Below are positions 35,559-64,000 of a stretch of 64,000 nt of DNA, piece after piece. The notes beneath the pieces were generated by a model. That model ran no database searches. It was not told where the DNA came from and worked only from the letters and a program-made list of their open reading frames with translations. The position numbers were made by a program, and so were the translations under genes. This stretch comes from Corallococcus soli (lineage in GTDB: Bacteria; Myxococcota; Myxococcia; Myxococcales; Myxococcaceae): NCBI RefSeq assembly GCF_014930455.1, contig NZ_JAAIYO010000012.1, positions 186,001-250,000 of the forward strand, given 5' to 3'. How positions within the stretch are numbered: the first letter of the stretch is position 1; each line of letters starts with the position of its first letter.

Positions 35559-38096
35559 GTGTCCCAGACGCGACGACAGCGGTGGTTCGACGGCTTCATC
35601 CGGACAGTGATGTCGCGCCCCTGGCAGGTGCTGCTCGCCGTCGCCCTGGTGACGGTCGGCGCGGGCCTCATCGCGTCGAGGCTGGAGTTCCGCGGCTCCT
35701 TCGTGGAGCTGCTACCGGAGGGTGCCCCTGAGGTCCGGGATCTGACACGCGTGTCAGAGAAGGCGGGGGGCGACGGGTACCTGGTCCTCATGGCGAAGGG
35801 CGCGACGCCGGAGGCCCTCAAGCGCTACGCCGCCGAACTTCAGGCGCGGCTGGAGGCCCTGCCGGAGGTCCGCTACGTCGAGCATCGCTATGACGTGGCC
35901 TTCTTCCGCCGCCACGCGCTGCTGCTGCTGCCCACGGAGAAGGTGGCCGCGCTCCGCCAGGATCTCCAGGCCCGGGTCCGCTACGAGAAGGAGCGCGCAA
36001 GCCCCCTGTTCGTGGACCTGGGCGCGGAGGAGGCGCCGCCCACCTTCGAGGAGATCGCCCGGAAGCATACGCCTGACACGGCGATGCCGGAGATGCTGGC
36101 CAGCAGGGACGGCTCCGAGGTCTACCTGATGATCAAGCCGTCGGGGACGGCGGGGGACCTGGACTTCGCCCGGCGCTTCGTGGCGACGGCGCTGGAGACG
36201 GGCCGCGCGCTCGCGGCGGCGAGCTATCCGGGCGTGACGCTGGAGGCGACGGGCAACTTCCAGAACCGCATTGAAGAGGACGCGGTGATGCGCCGCGACT
36301 TGTCGAACGCGGGCCTGCTGTCCGCGCTCATCGCCGTGGGGCTCATCCTGCTGGCGACGCGGCGCGTGTCGGCGCTGGCGGTGGTGGGCATGCCGGTGGT
36401 GGTGGGGCTGGTGCTGACGTTCGCGTTCGCGCAGGGCGCCATCGGGCACCTCAACATCGTGACGGGCTTCCTCGTCGCCATCCTCATCGGCCTGGGCATC
36501 GAGTACGGCGTGCACCTGGCGATGCGCTACTGGGAGGAGCGGGAGCGCCACGGAGTGCGCGAGGCGCTGACGGCCGCCGTGCGCGGCACCTTCGGGGGCG
36601 CCCTCACGTCCGCCTTCACCAACGCGGCGGCGTTCTTCGTGCTGATGCTGGCGCAGTTCCACGCCTTCCAGCAGTTCGGCCTGCTCGCGGGCCTGGGCGT
36701 GCTCATGGCGGTGCTGTCCGCTTACGCGGTGGGCCCGTCGCTGCTCGCCATCGCGGAGCGCATCCGGCCCTTCCGCAAGGAGCCCGCGCAGGGTGGGGTG
36801 CCCCAGGCCCAGGAGGCCCTGGTGTCGCCCACCCCCGCCGCGCCGGCCGCCCCGGAGAAGCCGTGGCGGCGCTGGCCCACCGGGCTCATCACCGCCATCG
36901 CGCTCCTGGTCGTGGGCTTCGCCGCGTACTCGGTGCGGGTCGCGCCCCACCTGGGCTTCGAGACGAACCTGCGCAACCTGAAGGGGGACTCTCCGGCGTC
37001 GCGGCTGGATGACCACATCACGGAGCAGATCGGCGCGCCGCTCAACCCGGCCATCCTGGCGGTGGATTCGCTGGAGCAGGTGCGGGAGGTGGAGGCCGTC
37101 ATCGCCCGGGTGAAGGCGGAGAACGGCGCGAACTCCGTGTTCCTGCGCACCGCCTCCCTGGGGGACCTGGTGCCCTCGGACACGGCGGGCCACGCGGCGG
37201 AGCTGGGCCTCATCCGCGCGCTCCTGGACGGGCTCCCGGCCTCCTCGCAGGCTGACGCGCGGGTGAAGGACTTCCGGGCCCTGGTGGACGCGAAGCCGTA
37301 TGGCCTGGAGCAGGTGCCGGTGGAGGCGCGTCGCCGCTTCGAGGCGGTGGGCGGCCAGGGCCTGTTCCTGCTGCTGTTCCCTTCGGTGTCCAACTACGAC
37401 ACGCAGGATCTGAACCGCTGGGCGGCGCAGCTGGATCAGGTGGTGGCGGGGGCGAAGCAGAAGGGCATCGACCTGGCGGTGCTGGACAGCAACCGCATCG
37501 CGGCGCGCATCTTCACGCTGGTCCAGGCGGACGGTCCGTTCATCCTCTGGGCGGCGGCCGCGGTGGTGTTCGCGGTCATCTTCATCAGCCTGCGCAGCTT
37601 CAAGAAGGCGCTGCTGGTGGCGGGCCCGCTGTTCCTGGGCATGACCTGCCTGGCGGGAGGGATGTACCTCTTCGACGTGCAGCTCAACTTCATCAACGCG
37701 GTGGTGCTGCCCAACCTGCTGGCCATCGCGGTGGACAACTCGGTGCACCTGTACCACCGGTACGAGGAAGAGGGCCCCGGGTCGCTGGGACGGGTGGTGC
37801 GCAACACCGGCTTCGCCGCGGTGATCGCGACCCTGTCCAACGCGGCGGGCTACGGAGCGCTGCTGGTCGCCAACCACCAGGGCCTGCGGAGCATCGGACA
37901 GATTGCGCTGCTGGGGGTCGTGTCCACCTTCCTGGGGACGACGGTGTTCTTCCCGGCCATGCTGGCGCTGCTGGAGCGGTGGAGGGGGCGGCGGTCCGCG
38001 GTGGTGCCCGAAGCAGGGGCGGTGGTGCGGAGCCTCAATCTCGGAGGGGCCGACGAGCTGTCGGCCGAATCGCCGGGGGAGCGCAAATCGGCGTGA
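35559..38096 (+). CDS. RND/MMPL-family lipid transporter (HpnN-like)
   Basis: An 845-residue inner-membrane protein. A GTG at 35559 follows an AGAGGAG site and gives the start 'MSQTRRQRWFDGFIRTVMSRP'. Two matching halves each have one helix, a large periplasmic domain and five helices, for example 'VVGLVLTFAFAQGAIGHLNIVTG' and 'LLAIAVDNSVHLYHRYEEEG'. 'GIEYGVHLAMRYWEER' is the MMPL/HpnN signature with the acidic proton-relay residues. Such pumps move hopanoids, glycolipids or other lipids. Its position between spt and the Aur1-like gene suggests sphingolipid or hopanoid export. The stop overlaps the next GTG by 4 bases. Confidence 0.88.
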   Translation: MSQTRRQRWFDGFIRTVMSRPWQVLLAVALVTVGAGLIASRLEFRGSFVELLPEGAPEVRDLTRVSEKAGGDGYLVLMAKGATPEALKRYAAELQARLEALPEVRYVEHRYDVAFFRRHALLLLPTEKVAALRQDLQARVRYEKERASPLFVDLGAEEAPPTFEEIARKHTPDTAMPEMLASRDGSEVYLMIKPSGTAGDLDFARRFVATALETGRALAAASYPGVTLEATGNFQNRIEEDAVMRRDLSNAGLLSALIAVGLILLATRRVSALAVVGMPVVVGLVLTFAFAQGAIGHLNIVTGFLVAILIGLGIEYGVHLAMRYWEERERHGVREALTAAVRGTFGGALTSAFTNAAAFFVLMLAQFHAFQQFGLLAGLGVLMAVLSAYAVGPSLLAIAERIRPFRKEPAQGGVPQAQEALVSPTPAAPAAPEKPWRRWPTGLITAIALLVVGFAAYSVRVAPHLGFETNLRNLKGDSPASRLDDHITEQIGAPLNPAILAVDSLEQVREVEAVIARVKAENGANSVFLRTASLGDLVPSDTAGHAAELGLIRALLDGLPASSQADARVKDFRALVDAKPYGLEQVPVEARRRFEAVGGQGLFLLLFPSVSNYDTQDLNRWAAQLDQVVAGAKQKGIDLAVLDSNRIAARIFTLVQADGPFILWAAAAVVFAVIFISLRSFKKALLVAGPLFLGMTCLAGGMYLFDVQLNFINAVVLPNLLAIAVDNSVHLYHRYEEEGPGSLGRVVRNTGFAAVIATLSNAAGYGALLVANHQGLRSIGQIALLGVVSTFLGTTVFFPAMLALLERWRGRRSAVVPEAGAVVRSLNLGGADELSAESPGERKSA

Positions 38097-39079
38097 ACAT
38101 CTGGTCTTTCAGCGGGGGGCGCGTGCTTCCCCATGTCTCAGTCCGGGGGCAGTCGGAGGGGGCGCTCGTGCGCTTCCGCCAGGTGGACCTCGTGCTGATG
38201 GCCGCCTGCTCGGTGGCGGCCCTGGTCTGCGTGGGCCCGGCCCGCTGGGCGCCCGGCTCCACCCGGAGCGCCTGCCTGTTCGGCCTGATGGCGCTGGGCG
38301 TGCCGCTGCTCCGCATGCTGGAGGCGCGCTTTCCGCGCCAGCCGCTCATCGCCATCGCGGCGGACTTCTGGCTGCTGCCCGTGTCGGCCCTGTCGCACGG
38401 GTGGCTGGGGCCCATCGTCGACTGGATGAACCCGCTGGTGAAGGACGCCCAGCTCATCGCGGTGGACGAGCGGCTCTTCGGCTTCCAGGCGGCGGTGTCG
38501 CTGTCCCACGTCGTGCCGCCGTGGGCGAACGACGTGCTGATGCTCTGCTACTACGGCCACTTCATCTGGCCGCTGCTGCTGGGCATCTTCCTGTACGCGC
38601 GCGGCCGGGGGCCCACGCCGGGCTTCGACGAATACCTGCTGGGCCTGGGGCTGCTCCTGAGCTTCAACTACGCGGCGTACTCGCTGGTGCCCGCGGTGGG
38701 CCCGCGCTACTTCCTCGTCGGCGCGTTCGACGGCGGGCTGCGCGGCTGGCTGCTCACGCCGCTGCTGGAGTCGATGATGCGCGGGCCGGTGTACACCCGG
38801 GACTGCTTCCCGTCCGGACACACCGGGGTGGCGCTGGTGGTGCTCTTCTACGCGTTCCGGTTCGCCCGGCGCTTCTTCTGGGTGATGCTGTTCCCCGGCC
38901 TGGGCCTCATCTTCGCGACGCTGTCCGGGCGCTTCCACTACACCATCGACCTGGTGTGCGCGGTGCCCCTGGTCCTCGTGGTGACGGGGCTGGCCCTGGC
39001 GCTGTCCCGGGCCGCCCGGCAGCGGGCGGTGGAACAGAACGCGCGCTCCGTGCCGGTGGACGCTATCGTCAGGCCCTGA
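38093..39079 (+). CDS. PAP2/Aur1-like membrane phosphatase or phosphotransferase
   Basis: A 328-residue membrane protein whose GTG overlaps the stop of the transporter gene (GTGA), with a GGGGGAG site before it. It has about seven hydrophobic segments. Active-site motifs are 'RDCFPSGHTGVALVV' (His) and 'SGRFHYTIDL' (His, Asp), plus 'VPAVGPRYFLVG'. This matches the PAP2_3/Aur1 group, which includes inositol-phosphorylceramide synthase. A head-group transfer step on ceramide is therefore plausible in this locus, but a plain lipid-phosphate phosphatase is equally possible. Confidence 0.82.
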   Translation: MNIWSFSGGRVLPHVSVRGQSEGALVRFRQVDLVLMAACSVAALVCVGPARWAPGSTRSACLFGLMALGVPLLRMLEARFPRQPLIAIAADFWLLPVSALSHGWLGPIVDWMNPLVKDAQLIAVDERLFGFQAAVSLSHVVPPWANDVLMLCYYGHFIWPLLLGIFLYARGRGPTPGFDEYLLGLGLLLSFNYAAYSLVPAVGPRYFLVGAFDGGLRGWLLTPLLESMMRGPVYTRDCFPSGHTGVALVVLFYAFRFARRFFWVMLFPGLGLIFATLSGRFHYTIDLVCAVPLVLVVTGLALALSRAARQRAVEQNARSVPVDAIVRP

Positions 39080-45680: not shown

Positions 45681-47210
45681 ATGTCCTACGACCAGAAGCT
45701 GCTCGAGACGATCGCCCAGGTGGAGAAGGGTGGCGCGCCGAAGTACCACGCCAAGAACGCGGAGGCCGGCAAGCTCTTCGCCCGCGAGCGCATCCGCCTG
45801 CTGGTGGACGCGGACTCGTTCGTGGAGGACGGCAAGCTCGCCAACAACCTGGACGCGGATCTGCCCTCCGACGGCGTCATCACGGGGCTCGGGCGCATCG
45901 CCGGCCGCACCGTGGCCATCATGGCCAACGACTCCACGGTGAAGGCGGGAAGCTGGGGCGCCCGCACGGTGGAGAAGATCCTCCGCATCCAGGAGACGGC
46001 GAAGGCGTCCCGCTGTCCGCTGCTGTACCTGGTGGACTCCGCGGGCGCGCGCATCACCGACCAGGTGGACATGTTCCCCGGCCGCCGGGGCGCGGGCCGC
46101 ATCTTCTACAACGAAGTGCACCTGTCGGGCGTGGTGCCGCAGATCTGCCTGCTCTTCGGACCGTCCGCCGCCGGCGGCGCGTACATCCCCGCGTTCTGTG
46201 ACCTGGTCATCATGGTGGACGGCAACGCGTCCATGTACCTGGGCAGCCCGCGCATGGCGGAGATGGTCATCGGGGAGAAGGTCACGCTGGAGGAGATGGG
46301 CGGCGCGAAGATGCACTGCTCCGTGTCCGGCGTGGGCGACGTGCTGGTGAAGACGGAGCAGGAGGCCATCGCCGCGGCGAAGCGGTACCTGGCGTTCTTC
46401 CCGGAGAACTTCACGAAGCCGGCGCCGCGCGCGGAGCTGAAGGCCCCGAAGCACAGCGGCAAGCGCGTGGATGAGATCATCCCGCCGGATCAGAACAAGC
46501 CCTTCGACATGCACGCCCTCATCACGGAGCTCATCGACGAGGGCAGCTGGTTCGAGGTGAAGAAGCTCTTCGCCCAGGAGCTGATCACCGGCCTTGCGCG
46601 CATCGGCGGACAGCCGGTGGGCATCGTGGCGAACCAGCCCAAGTACAAGGGCGGCGTGCTGTTCGTGGACAGCGCGGACAAGGCGGCCCGGTTCATCTGG
46701 CTGTGCGACGCGTTCAACATCCCGCTCTTGTACCTGGCGGACGTGCCGGGGTTCATGATCGGCACCAAGGTGGAGCGGGCGGGCATCATCCGCGCGGGCG
46801 CGAAGATGATCTCCGCGGTGTCGGAGGCCAGCGTGCCGCGCATCTGCGTGGTGGTGCGCAAGGCGTACGGCGCGGGCCTCTACGCCATGAGCGGCCCCGG
46901 CTTCGCCCCGGAGGCCACCCTGGCGCTGCCCCAGGCGATGATCGCCGTGATGGGCCCGGAGGCGGCGGTGAACGCCGTCTACTTCAACAAGATTCAAGAG
47001 CTGCCGGAGGCCGAGCGGCCGGCCTACGTCCAGAAGCTGCGCGACGAGTACAAAGAGGACGTGGACATCTACAAGCTGGCCAGCGAGCTCATCATCGACG
47101 CGGTCATCCCCGGGGATTCCCTGCGCGGGGAGCTGTTGCAGCGTTATGCGCTCTACGCGGAGCGCTTCCAGCCCCGCGCCGAAAAGAAGCACGGCGTCTA
47201 TCCCGTTTGA
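45681..47210 (+). CDS. Acyl-CoA carboxylase, carboxyltransferase (beta) subunit
   Basis: A 509-residue carboxyltransferase. It has the two CoA-carboxyltransferase halves: 'LVDSAGARITDQVDMFPGRRGAGRIF' with 'GPSAAGGAYIPAFCD', then 'ANQPKYKGGVLFVDSADKAARF' with 'RKAYGAGLYAMSGPGFAPE'. The typical methylcrotonyl-CoA signature 'GNYGMCGR' is absent; 'KAYGAGLYAM' takes its place. The substrate is therefore left open between methylcrotonyl-, propionyl- and other acyl-CoAs. The biotin-carboxylase partner is not in the window. Context (HMG-CoA lyase, hydratase, acyl-CoA dehydrogenase) favours branched-chain catabolism. The ATG at 45681 starts 'MSYDQKLLE'. Confidence 0.88.
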   Translation: MSYDQKLLETIAQVEKGGAPKYHAKNAEAGKLFARERIRLLVDADSFVEDGKLANNLDADLPSDGVITGLGRIAGRTVAIMANDSTVKAGSWGARTVEKILRIQETAKASRCPLLYLVDSAGARITDQVDMFPGRRGAGRIFYNEVHLSGVVPQICLLFGPSAAGGAYIPAFCDLVIMVDGNASMYLGSPRMAEMVIGEKVTLEEMGGAKMHCSVSGVGDVLVKTEQEAIAAAKRYLAFFPENFTKPAPRAELKAPKHSGKRVDEIIPPDQNKPFDMHALITELIDEGSWFEVKKLFAQELITGLARIGGQPVGIVANQPKYKGGVLFVDSADKAARFIWLCDAFNIPLLYLADVPGFMIGTKVERAGIIRAGAKMISAVSEASVPRICVVVRKAYGAGLYAMSGPGFAPEATLALPQAMIAVMGPEAAVNAVYFNKIQELPEAERPAYVQKLRDEYKEDVDIYKLASELIIDAVIPGDSLRGELLQRYALYAERFQPRAEKKHGVYPV

Positions 47211-59943: not shown

Positions 59944-60045
59944 GGGGCGGCAACGTATGTGCCGGACGCGGACTCGGGAAGCCCGTGAACACGGGCCAGG
60001 GAGCCCAAGGTCACTAGCGGACGGTCATCCGGGGGAGGACTCACG

Positions 60046-60065
60046 TCGACTTGCCTTTAAGTCGA
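60046..60065. repeat. Inverted repeat at the left edge of the islet
   Basis: TCGACTT (60046-60052), a 6-base loop and AAGTCGA (60059-60065) are perfect complements. The left half begins 103 bases upstream of the lipoprotein gene start at 59943. It could be an operator or a hairpin at the boundary of the low-GC block. Confidence 0.6.
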
Positions 60066-60103
60066 TGTTATCCGGTTTCGTGTGATGTTATCCGGTTTCG
60101 TGT
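60064..60103. repeat. Tandem 20-bp direct duplication
   Basis: Two identical 20-base units (60064-60083 and 60084-60103), each running GATG...CGTGT. A third GATG, at 60104, provides the ATG of the Cys-rich lipoprotein gene. Each unit contains an ATG, so the duplication adds alternative start points in front of the gene. Confidence 0.85.
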
Positions 60104-60104
60104 G

Positions 60105-60533
60105 ATGAGTGCGATTCAGTGGATTGCGACGGCTGTTGGTTTGGTACTCGGCGCCGGTTGTTCGACCGCCGCGCACGAGACGGGGCCTCGCACGACCGCT
60201 GTCTATCTGGCCCAGTCTGAGGCCACCTGCCGCCCCGGTGAGCTGAGTACCGTTTGCTGCTGGAAGAAGCACCGAAGCGCCGAAGCCTGCGGGATGACCG
60301 CAGCCGAAGCCGCCGAGGCAGCCACGCTCATGCAGGGCATCCAGGAGGCGACGAAAGGGACAAGCAAAGCCGCAGAGGACGACGGGGATGCTGGATGGAG
60401 GGAGCACTGCATCAAGGAATATGAGCGATGCCAAGCCATGCGCTGGGGTGGCGTCTGCGGCGATTGCATGGATTGGTGTAAGGGGCAAAAGCAGTGGCCA
60501 CGACACATGTGCGGACCCTCGGTGGCGAAATGA
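60105..60533 (+). CDS. Cys-rich small lipoprotein, Sit-like toxin candidate
   Basis: A 142-residue protein from the ATG at 60105; an upstream in-frame start at 60051 lies in the repeat. The signal 'IATAVGLVLGAGC' has a lipobox at Cys19. The mature part has 10 more Cys, six in the pattern 'HCIKEYERCQAMRWGGVCGDCMDWC' and 'MC'. It resembles the small lipoprotein toxins exchanged between Myxococcus cells through TraA outer-membrane exchange (SitA type), although SitA members vary greatly. DNA here is less GC-rich than nearby. The stop overlaps the ATG of a DUSAM-family gene. The toxin idea is inference. Confidence 0.5.
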   Translation: MSAIQWIATAVGLVLGAGCSTAAHETGPRTTAVYLAQSEATCRPGELSTVCCWKKHRSAEACGMTAAEAAEAATLMQGIQEATKGTSKAAEDDGDAGWREHCIKEYERCQAMRWGGVCGDCMDWCKGQKQWPRHMCGPSVAK

Positions 60534-61018: not shown

Positions 61019-61046
61019 GCGTCTGATAAGAAGCGTTATGTAAACT
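61019..61046. other. dif-like XerCD recombination site
   Basis: Left arm GCGTCTGATAA (61019-61029), 6-base centre GAAGCG and right arm TTATGTAAACT (61036-61046). The right arm is identical to the XerD-type arm of the Bacillus/Staphylococcus dif site, and the left arm agrees at 7 of 11 with the Staphylococcus arm. The ATAA-N6-TTAT core is conserved. The GC-rich centre is atypical. It lies 118 bases after the DUSAM gene in an AT-richer stretch. It could be the chromosome-dimer resolution site or a Xer-exploiting element end. Confidence 0.5.
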
Positions 61047-61121
61047 AAGTGGATGGTCCGTCTCCTGGACCGCCCCTTGGCCCAATTCGGGCCTGTCCCC
61101 CGCTCCCGGTGACCCCACGTC

Positions 61122-62558
61122 TCAGCCTCGCGTGTCCAGCCGCTCGATGAGGCGCACGAAGTCCGCGAGGTGGCGCGCGGCGGTGAAATGGGCGCGGACG
61201 TGCTCCTGGGCCCGGGTGCCCAGTTGGGCGGCCCGCTCCGGATTCTCCAGGAGCGAGCGCACCGTGCTCGCGAACTCCGCCGGGTCCCCGGGGTCGCGCA
61301 CGAGCAAGCCGTTCACGCCGTGGACCACCTGGTCCTGGAGCCCGCCCACTGCGCTCGCCACCACGGGGCGGCCCTTCCACATGGCCTCGGTGATGGTGAG
61401 CCCGAAGCCCTCCTGGAGGCTCTTCTGGACGACTACGGCCGCGTGGCGCTGGAGGGCGTTGACGATGGCGGCGTTCTCCTCCAGGTCGCTCATGGGCAGG
61501 CACGCCAGGTGGACGCGCCGACGCACGAAGTGAGGCTGCTGCCGCCACAGAGAGATGACGTCCTGGAGCGTCGCCGCCGCTTCCGGATCGTCCGCCACGG
61601 ACGTGACGGCCGGACCGGCGAGCACCAGCTCCGCGCGCAGGTCGGGCGACTGCCGCAGCAACAGCGCGAACCCATTCAGCACGCCCGCCGGGTCCTTTAG
61701 CGGATCCCACCGCGACACCTGCACCACCAGGGGCGAGTCAGGCTCGGGCTCGGCGCCGAGCCGCACGATGTCCGCGCCCCGCGACACGCGCGCGGGCACC
61801 CCGTCCGAGCGGGTGAAGACGGGCTCGGGCGCGTCCGGCGTCCCGCGTAGCAGGCCGGTACGGGCGAGGATGGCGCGGGCGACCTCGGGCGACAGGGGCC
61901 GGTTCTTCACCGCGAAGATGTCGATGGAGGGCTGGATGACGAGCGCCCGGTCCGCGCACTGGGGCGGCACGTAGGCGGCACGGCTGAAGACGGTGAGCCG
62001 GGCGGCAGTCAGGCCCGGCGCGAGGAACTCCCACGCCCGCGCCACCTCGGCGTTGGGGGTGTCCCGGCCCACGTGACAGCGCCAGGCCACGCGGGCCCCC
62101 GCCGCCGCCAGCGCGGGCGCCAGCCCCGCGGTCTGTGGGTCGTGCAGGAGCACCACGTCCCCCGGCCGCACCAGGACGAGCAGCTCCTCCAGGTTGTCGC
62201 GGAGCACCTCGTCGTACCGGGCATGCTCGGCCGCGCCCAGGGGCGACCCGTCCCCGCTCGAGCCATGCAGCGCGTGATGCAGCCGCTTGGTGATGTGGAA
62301 GAACTCCGGGGTGCCGCTCAGCACCAGCCAGCGCGCGTCCACGCCCGCCCCGCGAGCGTAGGCGACCAGCCGGGGCACCATCTCCGCCACGCCGCCCCCC
62401 TGCGCCGTGGAACTCACGTTCCAGAACGCTAGGCCTGCCATGAGCGCCCGGGCCTTCGCGGCCTCTTCCTGGAGCACGCTCCAGGCGGCCGCGTCCAGCT
62501 CGGACTCGAAGTGCGTCAGAGGTTCGGCCTGGACGTGCACCTCGAAGGGCTTGAGCAT
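61122..62558 (-). CDS. treT: Trehalose synthase TreT-like (GT4 glycosyltransferase)
   Basis: A 478-residue glycosyltransferase; TreT makes trehalose from NDP-glucose and glucose. The ATG at 62558 follows AGAGGTGAA. The N-terminal domain has 'WNVSSTAQGGGVAEMVPRLVAYARG' (donor loop), 'LHDPQTAGLAPALAAAGARVAWRCHVG' and 'QPSIDIFAVKNRPL'. The C-terminal domain has 'VVQVSRWDPLKDPAGVLNGFALLL' and the EX7E nucleotide motif 'EGFGLTITEAMWKGRPVVAS'. All fit the TreT branch of GT4. Trehalose would protect spores or drying cells. The gene stands alone and faces away from the S46 peptidase. Confidence 0.85.
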   Translation of the reverse strand: MLKPFEVHVQAEPLTHFESELDAAAWSVLQEEAAKARALMAGLAFWNVSSTAQGGGVAEMVPRLVAYARGAGVDARWLVLSGTPEFFHITKRLHHALHGSSGDGSPLGAAEHARYDEVLRDNLEELLVLVRPGDVVLLHDPQTAGLAPALAAAGARVAWRCHVGRDTPNAEVARAWEFLAPGLTAARLTVFSRAAYVPPQCADRALVIQPSIDIFAVKNRPLSPEVARAILARTGLLRGTPDAPEPVFTRSDGVPARVSRGADIVRLGAEPEPDSPLVVQVSRWDPLKDPAGVLNGFALLLRQSPDLRAELVLAGPAVTSVADDPEAAATLQDVISLWRQQPHFVRRRVHLACLPMSDLEENAAIVNALQRHAAVVVQKSLQEGFGLTITEAMWKGRPVVASAVGGLQDQVVHGVNGLLVRDPGDPAEFASTVRSLLENPERAAQLGTRAQEHVRAHFTAARHLADFVRLIERLDTRG

Positions 62559-62974
62559 TTCACCTCTCGCTCGGAAGCGCGGCGCCCCTTTCACGGGCGG
62601 ATGGCGGCCTCTCCAGGCGGTGACGCCTTGAAAGTAGTCATCGTGTAGGAGCGCGCCCTCCAGGGGTTCCGCAGGGCCAAGGCGCACGGCCGGCACCACG
62701 CCAGGGGCATGGCGGCGCGGGACCCGGATTTCCTGATCCACCCTGCCCGCCCTTTCGGACGCAATGCGTCGGACTCCGGCGGCGGACCGGATCCACCCCC
62801 CACGGGAGGAAATCCGCATGCCTGGCCGGTCACCTCAGGAATCGTTCAGGCGCTCATGCGTTCAGCGTCTTGCGTGGGCGTTTTCCCAGCTTGACCGTCG
62901 CCGGGCCTTCCCTCACAAACGCCCCGTCCCCGCTGCTGGCCTTCCCGTCCAGCGGCCCGAAAGGATCCCGACTC
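62559..62974. other. Divergent intergenic region, treT and S46 peptidase
   Basis: 416 bases with no gene I can support. It must hold both promoters. On the plus strand TTGACC at 62891-62896 is a -35-like box without a convincing -10. The ribosome-binding site of the peptidase is AAGGATC just before 62975. The remaining ORFs here are Arg/Pro-rich shadows. Confidence 0.45.
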
Positions 62975-64000
62975 ATGAAGCGATTGGTCGTCATCGCCGC
63001 CCTCGTGGGGGCCGCTCCGGCGCTCGCCGATGAAGGCATGTGGACGTACAACAACTTCCCCGCCGCCAAGGTGAAGGAGAAGTACGGCTTCGAGCCGTCC
63101 CAGCAGTGGCTGGAGAAGCTTCGCCTGGGCGCGGTGCGTCTGGCCGGTGGCTGCTCCGCCAGCTTCGTGTCGCCGGACGGCCTGGTGATGACGAACCACC
63201 ACTGCGCGCGCGGCTGCATCGAGCAGCTGTCCACCGCGAAGCAGGACTACCTGGCCAACGGCTTCTACGCGAAGTCCCAGGCCGAGGAGAAGCAGTGCCC
63301 GGCGATGGAGGTGAACCAGCTCGTCGAGATCACCGACGTCACCGAAACCCTGAACAAGGCCACCCAGTCCCTGTCCGGCAAGCAGTACTCGGACACGCTG
63401 AAGTCGGAGATGGCCAAGGTGGAGAAGGCCTGCTCCGCCGGCGACGACAAGGTGCGCTGTGACGTCGTCACGCTGTACCAGGGCGGCAAGTACAACCTCT
63501 ACAAGTACCGCCGCTTCCAGGACGTGCGCCTGGTATTCGCCCCGGAGCACGCCATCGCGTTCTTCGGCGGTGACCCGGACAACTTCGAGTTCCCCCGCTA
63601 CGACCTGGACGTCACGTTCGTGCGCGTCTACCAGGACAAGCAGCCGGCGAAGACGCCGGACTACTTCAAGTGGTCCAAGGGCGGCGCCAAGGAGAACGAG
63701 CTCACGTTCATCCCCGGCAACCCGGGCCGCACGTCGCGCGCGCTGACCATGGCGGAGCTGGAGTACACCCGCGATGTGTCCATGCCCAAGACGCTCATGT
63801 ACCTGTCCGAGCTGCGCGGCATGCTCACCGAGTTCCAGAAGCGCGGCCCCGAGCAGAAGCGCGTCTCCAGCAACCTGCTGTTCGGCGTGGAGAACGCGCT
63901 GAAGGCGTCCAAGGGCCGCCACGAGGCGCTGCTGGACAAGAAGTTCTTCGGGTCCAAGGTCGCCGCGGAGCAGGAGCTGCGCAAGAAGGTCGACGCGAAC
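62975..64000 (+). CDS. S46-family dipeptidyl peptidase, N-terminal part (partial)
   Basis: The frame runs from an ATG at 62975, with AAGGATC upstream, to the window end, giving 342 residues of a protein usually about 700 long. The signal 'MKRLVVIAALVGAAPALA' directs export. The chymotrypsin-like fold of DPP7/DPP11 enzymes is visible: 'VSPDGLVMTNHHC' (catalytic His, residue 75 or 76), and 'FFGGDPDNFEFPRYDLD', which holds the Asp. The catalytic Ser ('GNSGSP') lies beyond the window. It cleaves dipeptides from peptide N-termini, useful for feeding on proteins. Confidence 0.92.
   Translation, partial: MKRLVVIAALVGAAPALADEGMWTYNNFPAAKVKEKYGFEPSQQWLEKLRLGAVRLAGGCSASFVSPDGLVMTNHHCARGCIEQLSTAKQDYLANGFYAKSQAEEKQCPAMEVNQLVEITDVTETLNKATQSLSGKQYSDTLKSEMAKVEKACSAGDDKVRCDVVTLYQGGKYNLYKYRRFQDVRLVFAPEHAIAFFGGDPDNFEFPRYDLDVTFVRVYQDKQPAKTPDYFKWSKGGAKENELTFIPGNPGRTSRALTMAELEYTRDVSMPKTLMYLSELRGMLTEFQKRGPEQKRVSSNLLFGVENALKASKGRHEALLDKKFFGSKVAAEQELRKKVDAN

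Follow-up and report, generated by a model that had tools for sequence, protein, structure and literature searches.

The window, by which we mean the whole 64-kb stretch of DNA that was analysed, contains at positions 61019–61046 of the forward strand a 28-bp sequence that reads GCGTCTGATAA-GAAGCG-TTATGTAAACT. The left arm (GCGTCTGATAA, 61019–61029) carries the ATAA half-site and the right arm (TTATGTAAACT, 61036–61046) the TTATGT half-site, and they are separated by the central hexamer GAAGCG (61030–61035), which is the crossover region of such sites. The 28 bases thus follow the 11-6-11 layout of a dif site exactly as was claimed in the original prediction. The left arm is the putative XerC-binding arm and the right arm the putative XerD-binding arm, an assignment made by analogy with known dif sites. 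Also in line with the prediction, the right arm is identical to that of the Bacillus subtilis dif quoted in PMC3025954; the B. subtilis site differs from that of the window in its left arm and in its AT-rich centre.

The site lies in a variable segment of an otherwise syntenic region. Chromosomal synteny with relatives extends on the left up to about position 59988 and is found again on the right from about 62690; between these points the relatives differ strongly, and the conserved right anchor (62690–64000 in the window) is found 1.7–31 kb from dif. An islet of low GC content precedes the site and holds two genes on the forward strand: a small cysteine-rich putative lipoprotein (60104–60533; no family match, signal/lipobox and start assigned by eye) and a DUSAM-domain protein (DUF2379/TIGR02267, 60530–60901), which overlap by ATGA. 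In the leader of the lipoprotein gene, just 5' of the start codon, about 20 bp are duplicated in tandem (60063–60103, forward strand) where relatives have one unit. The AACCGGATAA-like repeats at this position were considered as ends of a mobile element and rejected, as they are the leader sequence of the relatives that is merely duplicated here. The islet gene pair stops 118 bp short of dif; the approximately 110 bp that separate it from the site are common to the genomes G067 and G071, and G060 and G064 have islet-related DNA in the corresponding position. On the other side, 76 bp from dif, a glycosyltransferase with a TreT N-terminal domain is encoded on the reverse strand (61122–62819). 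This gene is the sole copy in the genome, and its orthologues are located elsewhere in the genomes of the genus where they are visible (3.1 Mb from dif in G059), so that it has probably been relocated to dif. All of these genes, and the duplication, lie outside the site itself. A search of the window with Rfam returned a tRNA and nothing else, and comparison of the dif flank with a plasmid collection gave no meaningful match. Gene types resembling those of the islet were seen on the 50-kb plasmid pYRE of M. stipitatus (L145), which encodes a TIGR02269 lipoprotein, a double-CXXCG protein and a DUSAM protein (36957–38402 and 46373–46756).

The frequency of the motif was determined in three sets of sequences. 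The pattern ATAA-N6-TTATGTAAACT matched once in the window when up to 3 mismatches were allowed, with 0.00 matches expected from shuffled sequences, and once in the whole assembly (9,437,609 bp in 68 contigs) with up to 2 mismatches. Among 624 kb of further chromosomal DNA from Myxococcaceae, searched on both strands, no position reached 12 of the 15 core positions. The site is thus far outside what chance would produce, as had been expected for such GC-rich DNA. The 9.44-Mb draft contained no second copy at up to 2 mismatches, in agreement with the single chromosomal copy of a dif site, and a better chromosomal dif elsewhere in the genome was not found.

A search across the order showed the core, at no more than 1 mismatch, in 108 of 145 genomes, mostly as a single copy. 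It occurs once in nearly all Myxococcaceae, including all 16 genomes of the genus. The central hexamer is GAAGCG in 15 of these 16 and GAATCG in the other, and the centres in other genera of the Myxococcaceae are GATGCG, CATGCG or TGAGCG. The GC-rich centre, which had been called unusual, is therefore the norm in the family. For 29 Myxococcaceae copies, the mean information content per position was 1.68 bits in the XerC arm, 1.55 bits in the centre and 1.98 bits in the XerD arm (the arm values are inflated, since the copies were chosen by the core), against 0.45–0.59 bits in the left and 0.36–0.91 bits in the right flank. The GTC in the outer XerC arm, which is outside the core used for selection, was likewise invariant. 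The information peak of 28 bp together with this unselected GTC indicates that the conserved block is the 28-mer itself. The dif site of Myxococcus xanthus DK1622 has been published as AGGTCCGATAACATGCGTTATGTAAACT, with the skew shift at a distance of 57 kb (Carnoy and Roten 2009, PMC2731167, Table 1). It shares with the site in the window the 11-6-11 layout, an identical XerD arm and GATAA, occurrence as a single copy and a position near the skew shift, and it differs only in the outer XerC arm (AGGTCC versus GCGTCT in the window) and the centre (CATGCG versus GAAGCG). As judged from this comparison, which the original prediction had proposed to make with other myxobacteria, the two sites are orthologues, and the one described here is a further instance of a known site type; the M. 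xanthus dif, with its CATGCG centre, was published in 2009.

The position relative to the replication terminus was assessed by three measures. In 20 complete or nearly complete relatives (genome sizes rounded for 11 of them) the distance between dif and dnaA was 0.47–0.54 of the chromosome; these values come from the relatives, the source genome being a draft of 68 contigs. The GC skew, calculated on stretches of the contig that carries the site, was +0.025 over the 241 kb to the left of dif and −0.017 over the 47 kb to the right, with the maximum of the cumulative skew 13 kb from dif and the switch of sign within 14 kb. The KOPS-type octamer GGGNAGGG occurred on the same contig in a ratio of 99:12 (forward:reverse) to the left of dif and 0:25 to the right, so that it aims at the site from both sides; its change point is between positions 236099 and 248741 of the contig (C12), on which dif is at 247019. 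When all 8-mers with at least 25 occurrences were ranked and no motif was chosen beforehand, GGGCAGGG was the strongest strand-switcher at dif. In the complete genome G059 (10,080,619 bp, sampled in 20 stretches) the ratio for GGGNAGGG was 67:10 in one arm and 12:53 in the other. GGGNAGGG is the KOPS consensus of Escherichia coli, and that it orients the FtsK of this host is extrapolated from E. coli. The location at the skew shift, the convergence of polar motifs and the place opposite dnaA in relatives support the proposal that the site marks the replication terminus. The strand of dif relative to dnaA was mixed among 18 Myxococcaceae (8 alike, 10 opposite, counted by eye), from which it appears that the terminus has been inverted repeatedly.

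The genome encodes XerD (359 bits versus an NCBIfam cut-off of 330) and a second recombinase whose best match is XerC. The latter scored 325 bits, which is 10 below the XerC equivalog cut-off of 335 and above the cut-off of 279 for the XerC/D subfamily, and it is taken as XerC by best match. One FtsK with a gamma domain is encoded as well. Overall, we conclude, with a probability of about 97%, that positions 61019–61046 are the chromosomal dif of a myxobacterium that belongs to the Myxococcaceae and very probably to Corallococcus; the sequence, uniqueness, conservation, position, motif convergence and gene presence are those of a dif site, and no evidence against this reading was found. Binding of XerC and XerD, activation of XerD and recombination would then proceed as in known systems. 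By analogy with the family, XerC would occupy the left and XerD the right arm, and FtsK, steered by GGGNAGGG motifs, would pair the two dif copies of a chromosome dimer at the septum and activate XerD, upon which strand exchange within the GAAGCG centre would resolve the dimer.

Two other readings of the site itself were weighed. As had also been suggested, it might be the attachment end of an element that uses the XerCD recombinases of the host; the low-GC islet would then be the cargo of such an integrative element (IMEX). The adjoining AT-richer islet is indeed absent or different in many relatives. However, an IMEX would be flanked by two dif-like sites, and a search of the genome with up to 2 mismatches gave no second one, which argues that the site is not such an end; for the same reason the islet was rejected as a Xer-integrated element. 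Moreover, the islet genes do not abut the site but stop before it at the shared spacer described above, relatives have related gene pairs in the corresponding position, and the DNA directly on either side of dif is chromosomal or old. We consider this reading very improbable. Still more improbable is a resolution site of a plasmid or phage (cer/pdif-like) in place of a chromosomal dif. Dif-like sites with other centres do occur in relatives on putative plasmids or conjugative elements, but the contig studied here is chromosomal by synteny, skew and KOPS polarity reverse at the site, and the genome contains no other site of this kind.

Four relatives (L054, G109:C2; L055, G102:C148; L056, G072:C25; L057, G115:C131) have a second dif-like site whose centre does not resemble that of the chromosomal dif, and the left flanks of these sites are similar (CGAATTTACTG-like). 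The contig of G115 carries a VirB4/TraC-like gene, and some of these sites may therefore be resolution sites of plasmids or conjugative elements. No dif-like site is present on the closed M. stipitatus plasmid pYRE, which is distantly related to the conjugative contig of G115.

Four Myxococcota genomes contain an element that encodes its own pair of tyrosine recombinases and whose start coincides exactly with the XerD edge of a dif or dif-like site (L049, G067:C831, 28–4410 bp right of dif; L107, G052:C23, 4758 onward; L070, G136:C171, 9964–16076; and L113, G193). In G067, which belongs to the same genus as the source of the window, the insert of 4.39 kb extends from the base after dif to just before the ancestral flank AAGCCTCTGGG. 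It is bounded by imperfect terminal inverted repeats (AACCGGATAATCCGCCCGC and GCGGACGGATTGTCCGGTT) and encodes two adjacent tyrosine recombinases (Pfam Phage_integrase), whose RHRY motifs look intact, and an ArsR-like gene (named by eye). The element in G052 carries RND metal-efflux-like genes (also named by eye). Seven further Myxococcota genomes encode full-length relatives of the second G067 recombinase. A perfect 15/15 core lies 53–165 bp from the 3' end of this recombinase, in the same orientation, in G067, G052, G136 and G193; it belongs to the chromosomal dif in the former two and to a dif-like site in the latter two (centres TACTGC and TTTATC). Given that 624 kb of chromosomal DNA yielded no 12/15 match, four perfect neighbouring cores are not due to chance. 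The contigs of G129, G131 and G157 stop at the predicted dif position or before it. At the expected place beside the recombinase, a dif-like site is absent in G194 (apparently the same MAG as L128), L123 and L129; L123, L128 and L129 carry more distant relatives of the recombinase, which indicates that targeting of dif is not general in this recombinase family. A third type of junction was seen in G062 (L043), where GTGCGCCAGGAAGCTGC, which by eye resembles transposase coding DNA, begins directly behind the last base of dif, and in G066 (L048, G066:C271), where it begins directly behind that of a dif-like site.

The right ends of the elements read C'-AACGG-TCAACT in G067 and C'-AAATG-TAAACT in G136, where C' is an inverted copy of the left end, and the two dif arms common in the order terminate in the six bases TAAACT and TCAACT. 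Judged from these two junctions, the ends appear to follow the 6-bp footprint rule of SEs and Tn554 (PMC10214605). Tn554-related elements and SEs further share with the elements at dif two tyrosine recombinases, short imperfect inverted terminal repeats and target specificity; unlike them, the elements described here target the XerD edge of dif, and no third or fourth essential gene was identified. IMEX such as the CTX phage, the gonococcal genomic island and LME-1 also use dif as insertion target, as is seen in relatives of the window, but they carry a dif mimic and rely on the host Xer recombinases (PMC5357621, PMC9765430), whereas the elements beside dif in G067, G052, G136 and G193 bring two tyrosine recombinases; the window has neither kind.

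Element ends of the G067 type are also found after dif in G052 and, in weaker form, in G064, G068 and G071. The right flank of dif in the window (61047–61090, forward strand, starting AAGTGGATGGTCCGTCT) could accordingly be a relic of the end of such an element, with dif being real and its AAGTGGATGGTCC flank also the scar of an insertion at the XerD edge. The 47 bases to the right of the site align with the equivalent position in G064 and G071 (z = 3.5 each), which carry ACCGGATGGTCC ends and whose flank right of dif starts with G/AACCGGATGGTCC. Against this, just about 45 bp would be left in the window, the similarity to the intact end in G067 is weak (z = 1.0), and neither two adjacent tyrosine recombinases beside the site nor any relative of the G067 recombinase in the genome was found. 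A Tn554/SE-like element is thus absent from the window save for this possible relic, and we regard the scar as tentative, at slightly less than even odds. The same restraint applies to the wider proposal, for which the chances are somewhat below one half, that the Myxococcota harbour a family of elements that encode their own two tyrosine recombinases, insert precisely at the edge of the XerD arm of chromosomal or plasmid-like dif sites, leave dif intact, have a 6-bp footprint like Tn554/SE elements and accumulate at this edge together with cargo such as genes for heavy-metal efflux, the dif of the window bearing the scar of one of them. No description of two-recombinase elements at dif was found in the open-access papers that were searched.

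The role of a dif site is to allow two joined chromosome copies to be separated before division, and the one described here locates the terminus of a draft myxobacterial chromosome. Its GC-rich centre is nearly fixed inside the genus but changes from genus to genus, whereas there is hardly any variation in the XerD arm. If confirmed, the elements at the edge of dif would represent a use of dif for insertion that possibly does not involve the host Xer recombinases; they would link elements of the Tn554/SE type to the resolution site of chromosome dimers and could offer simple test systems.
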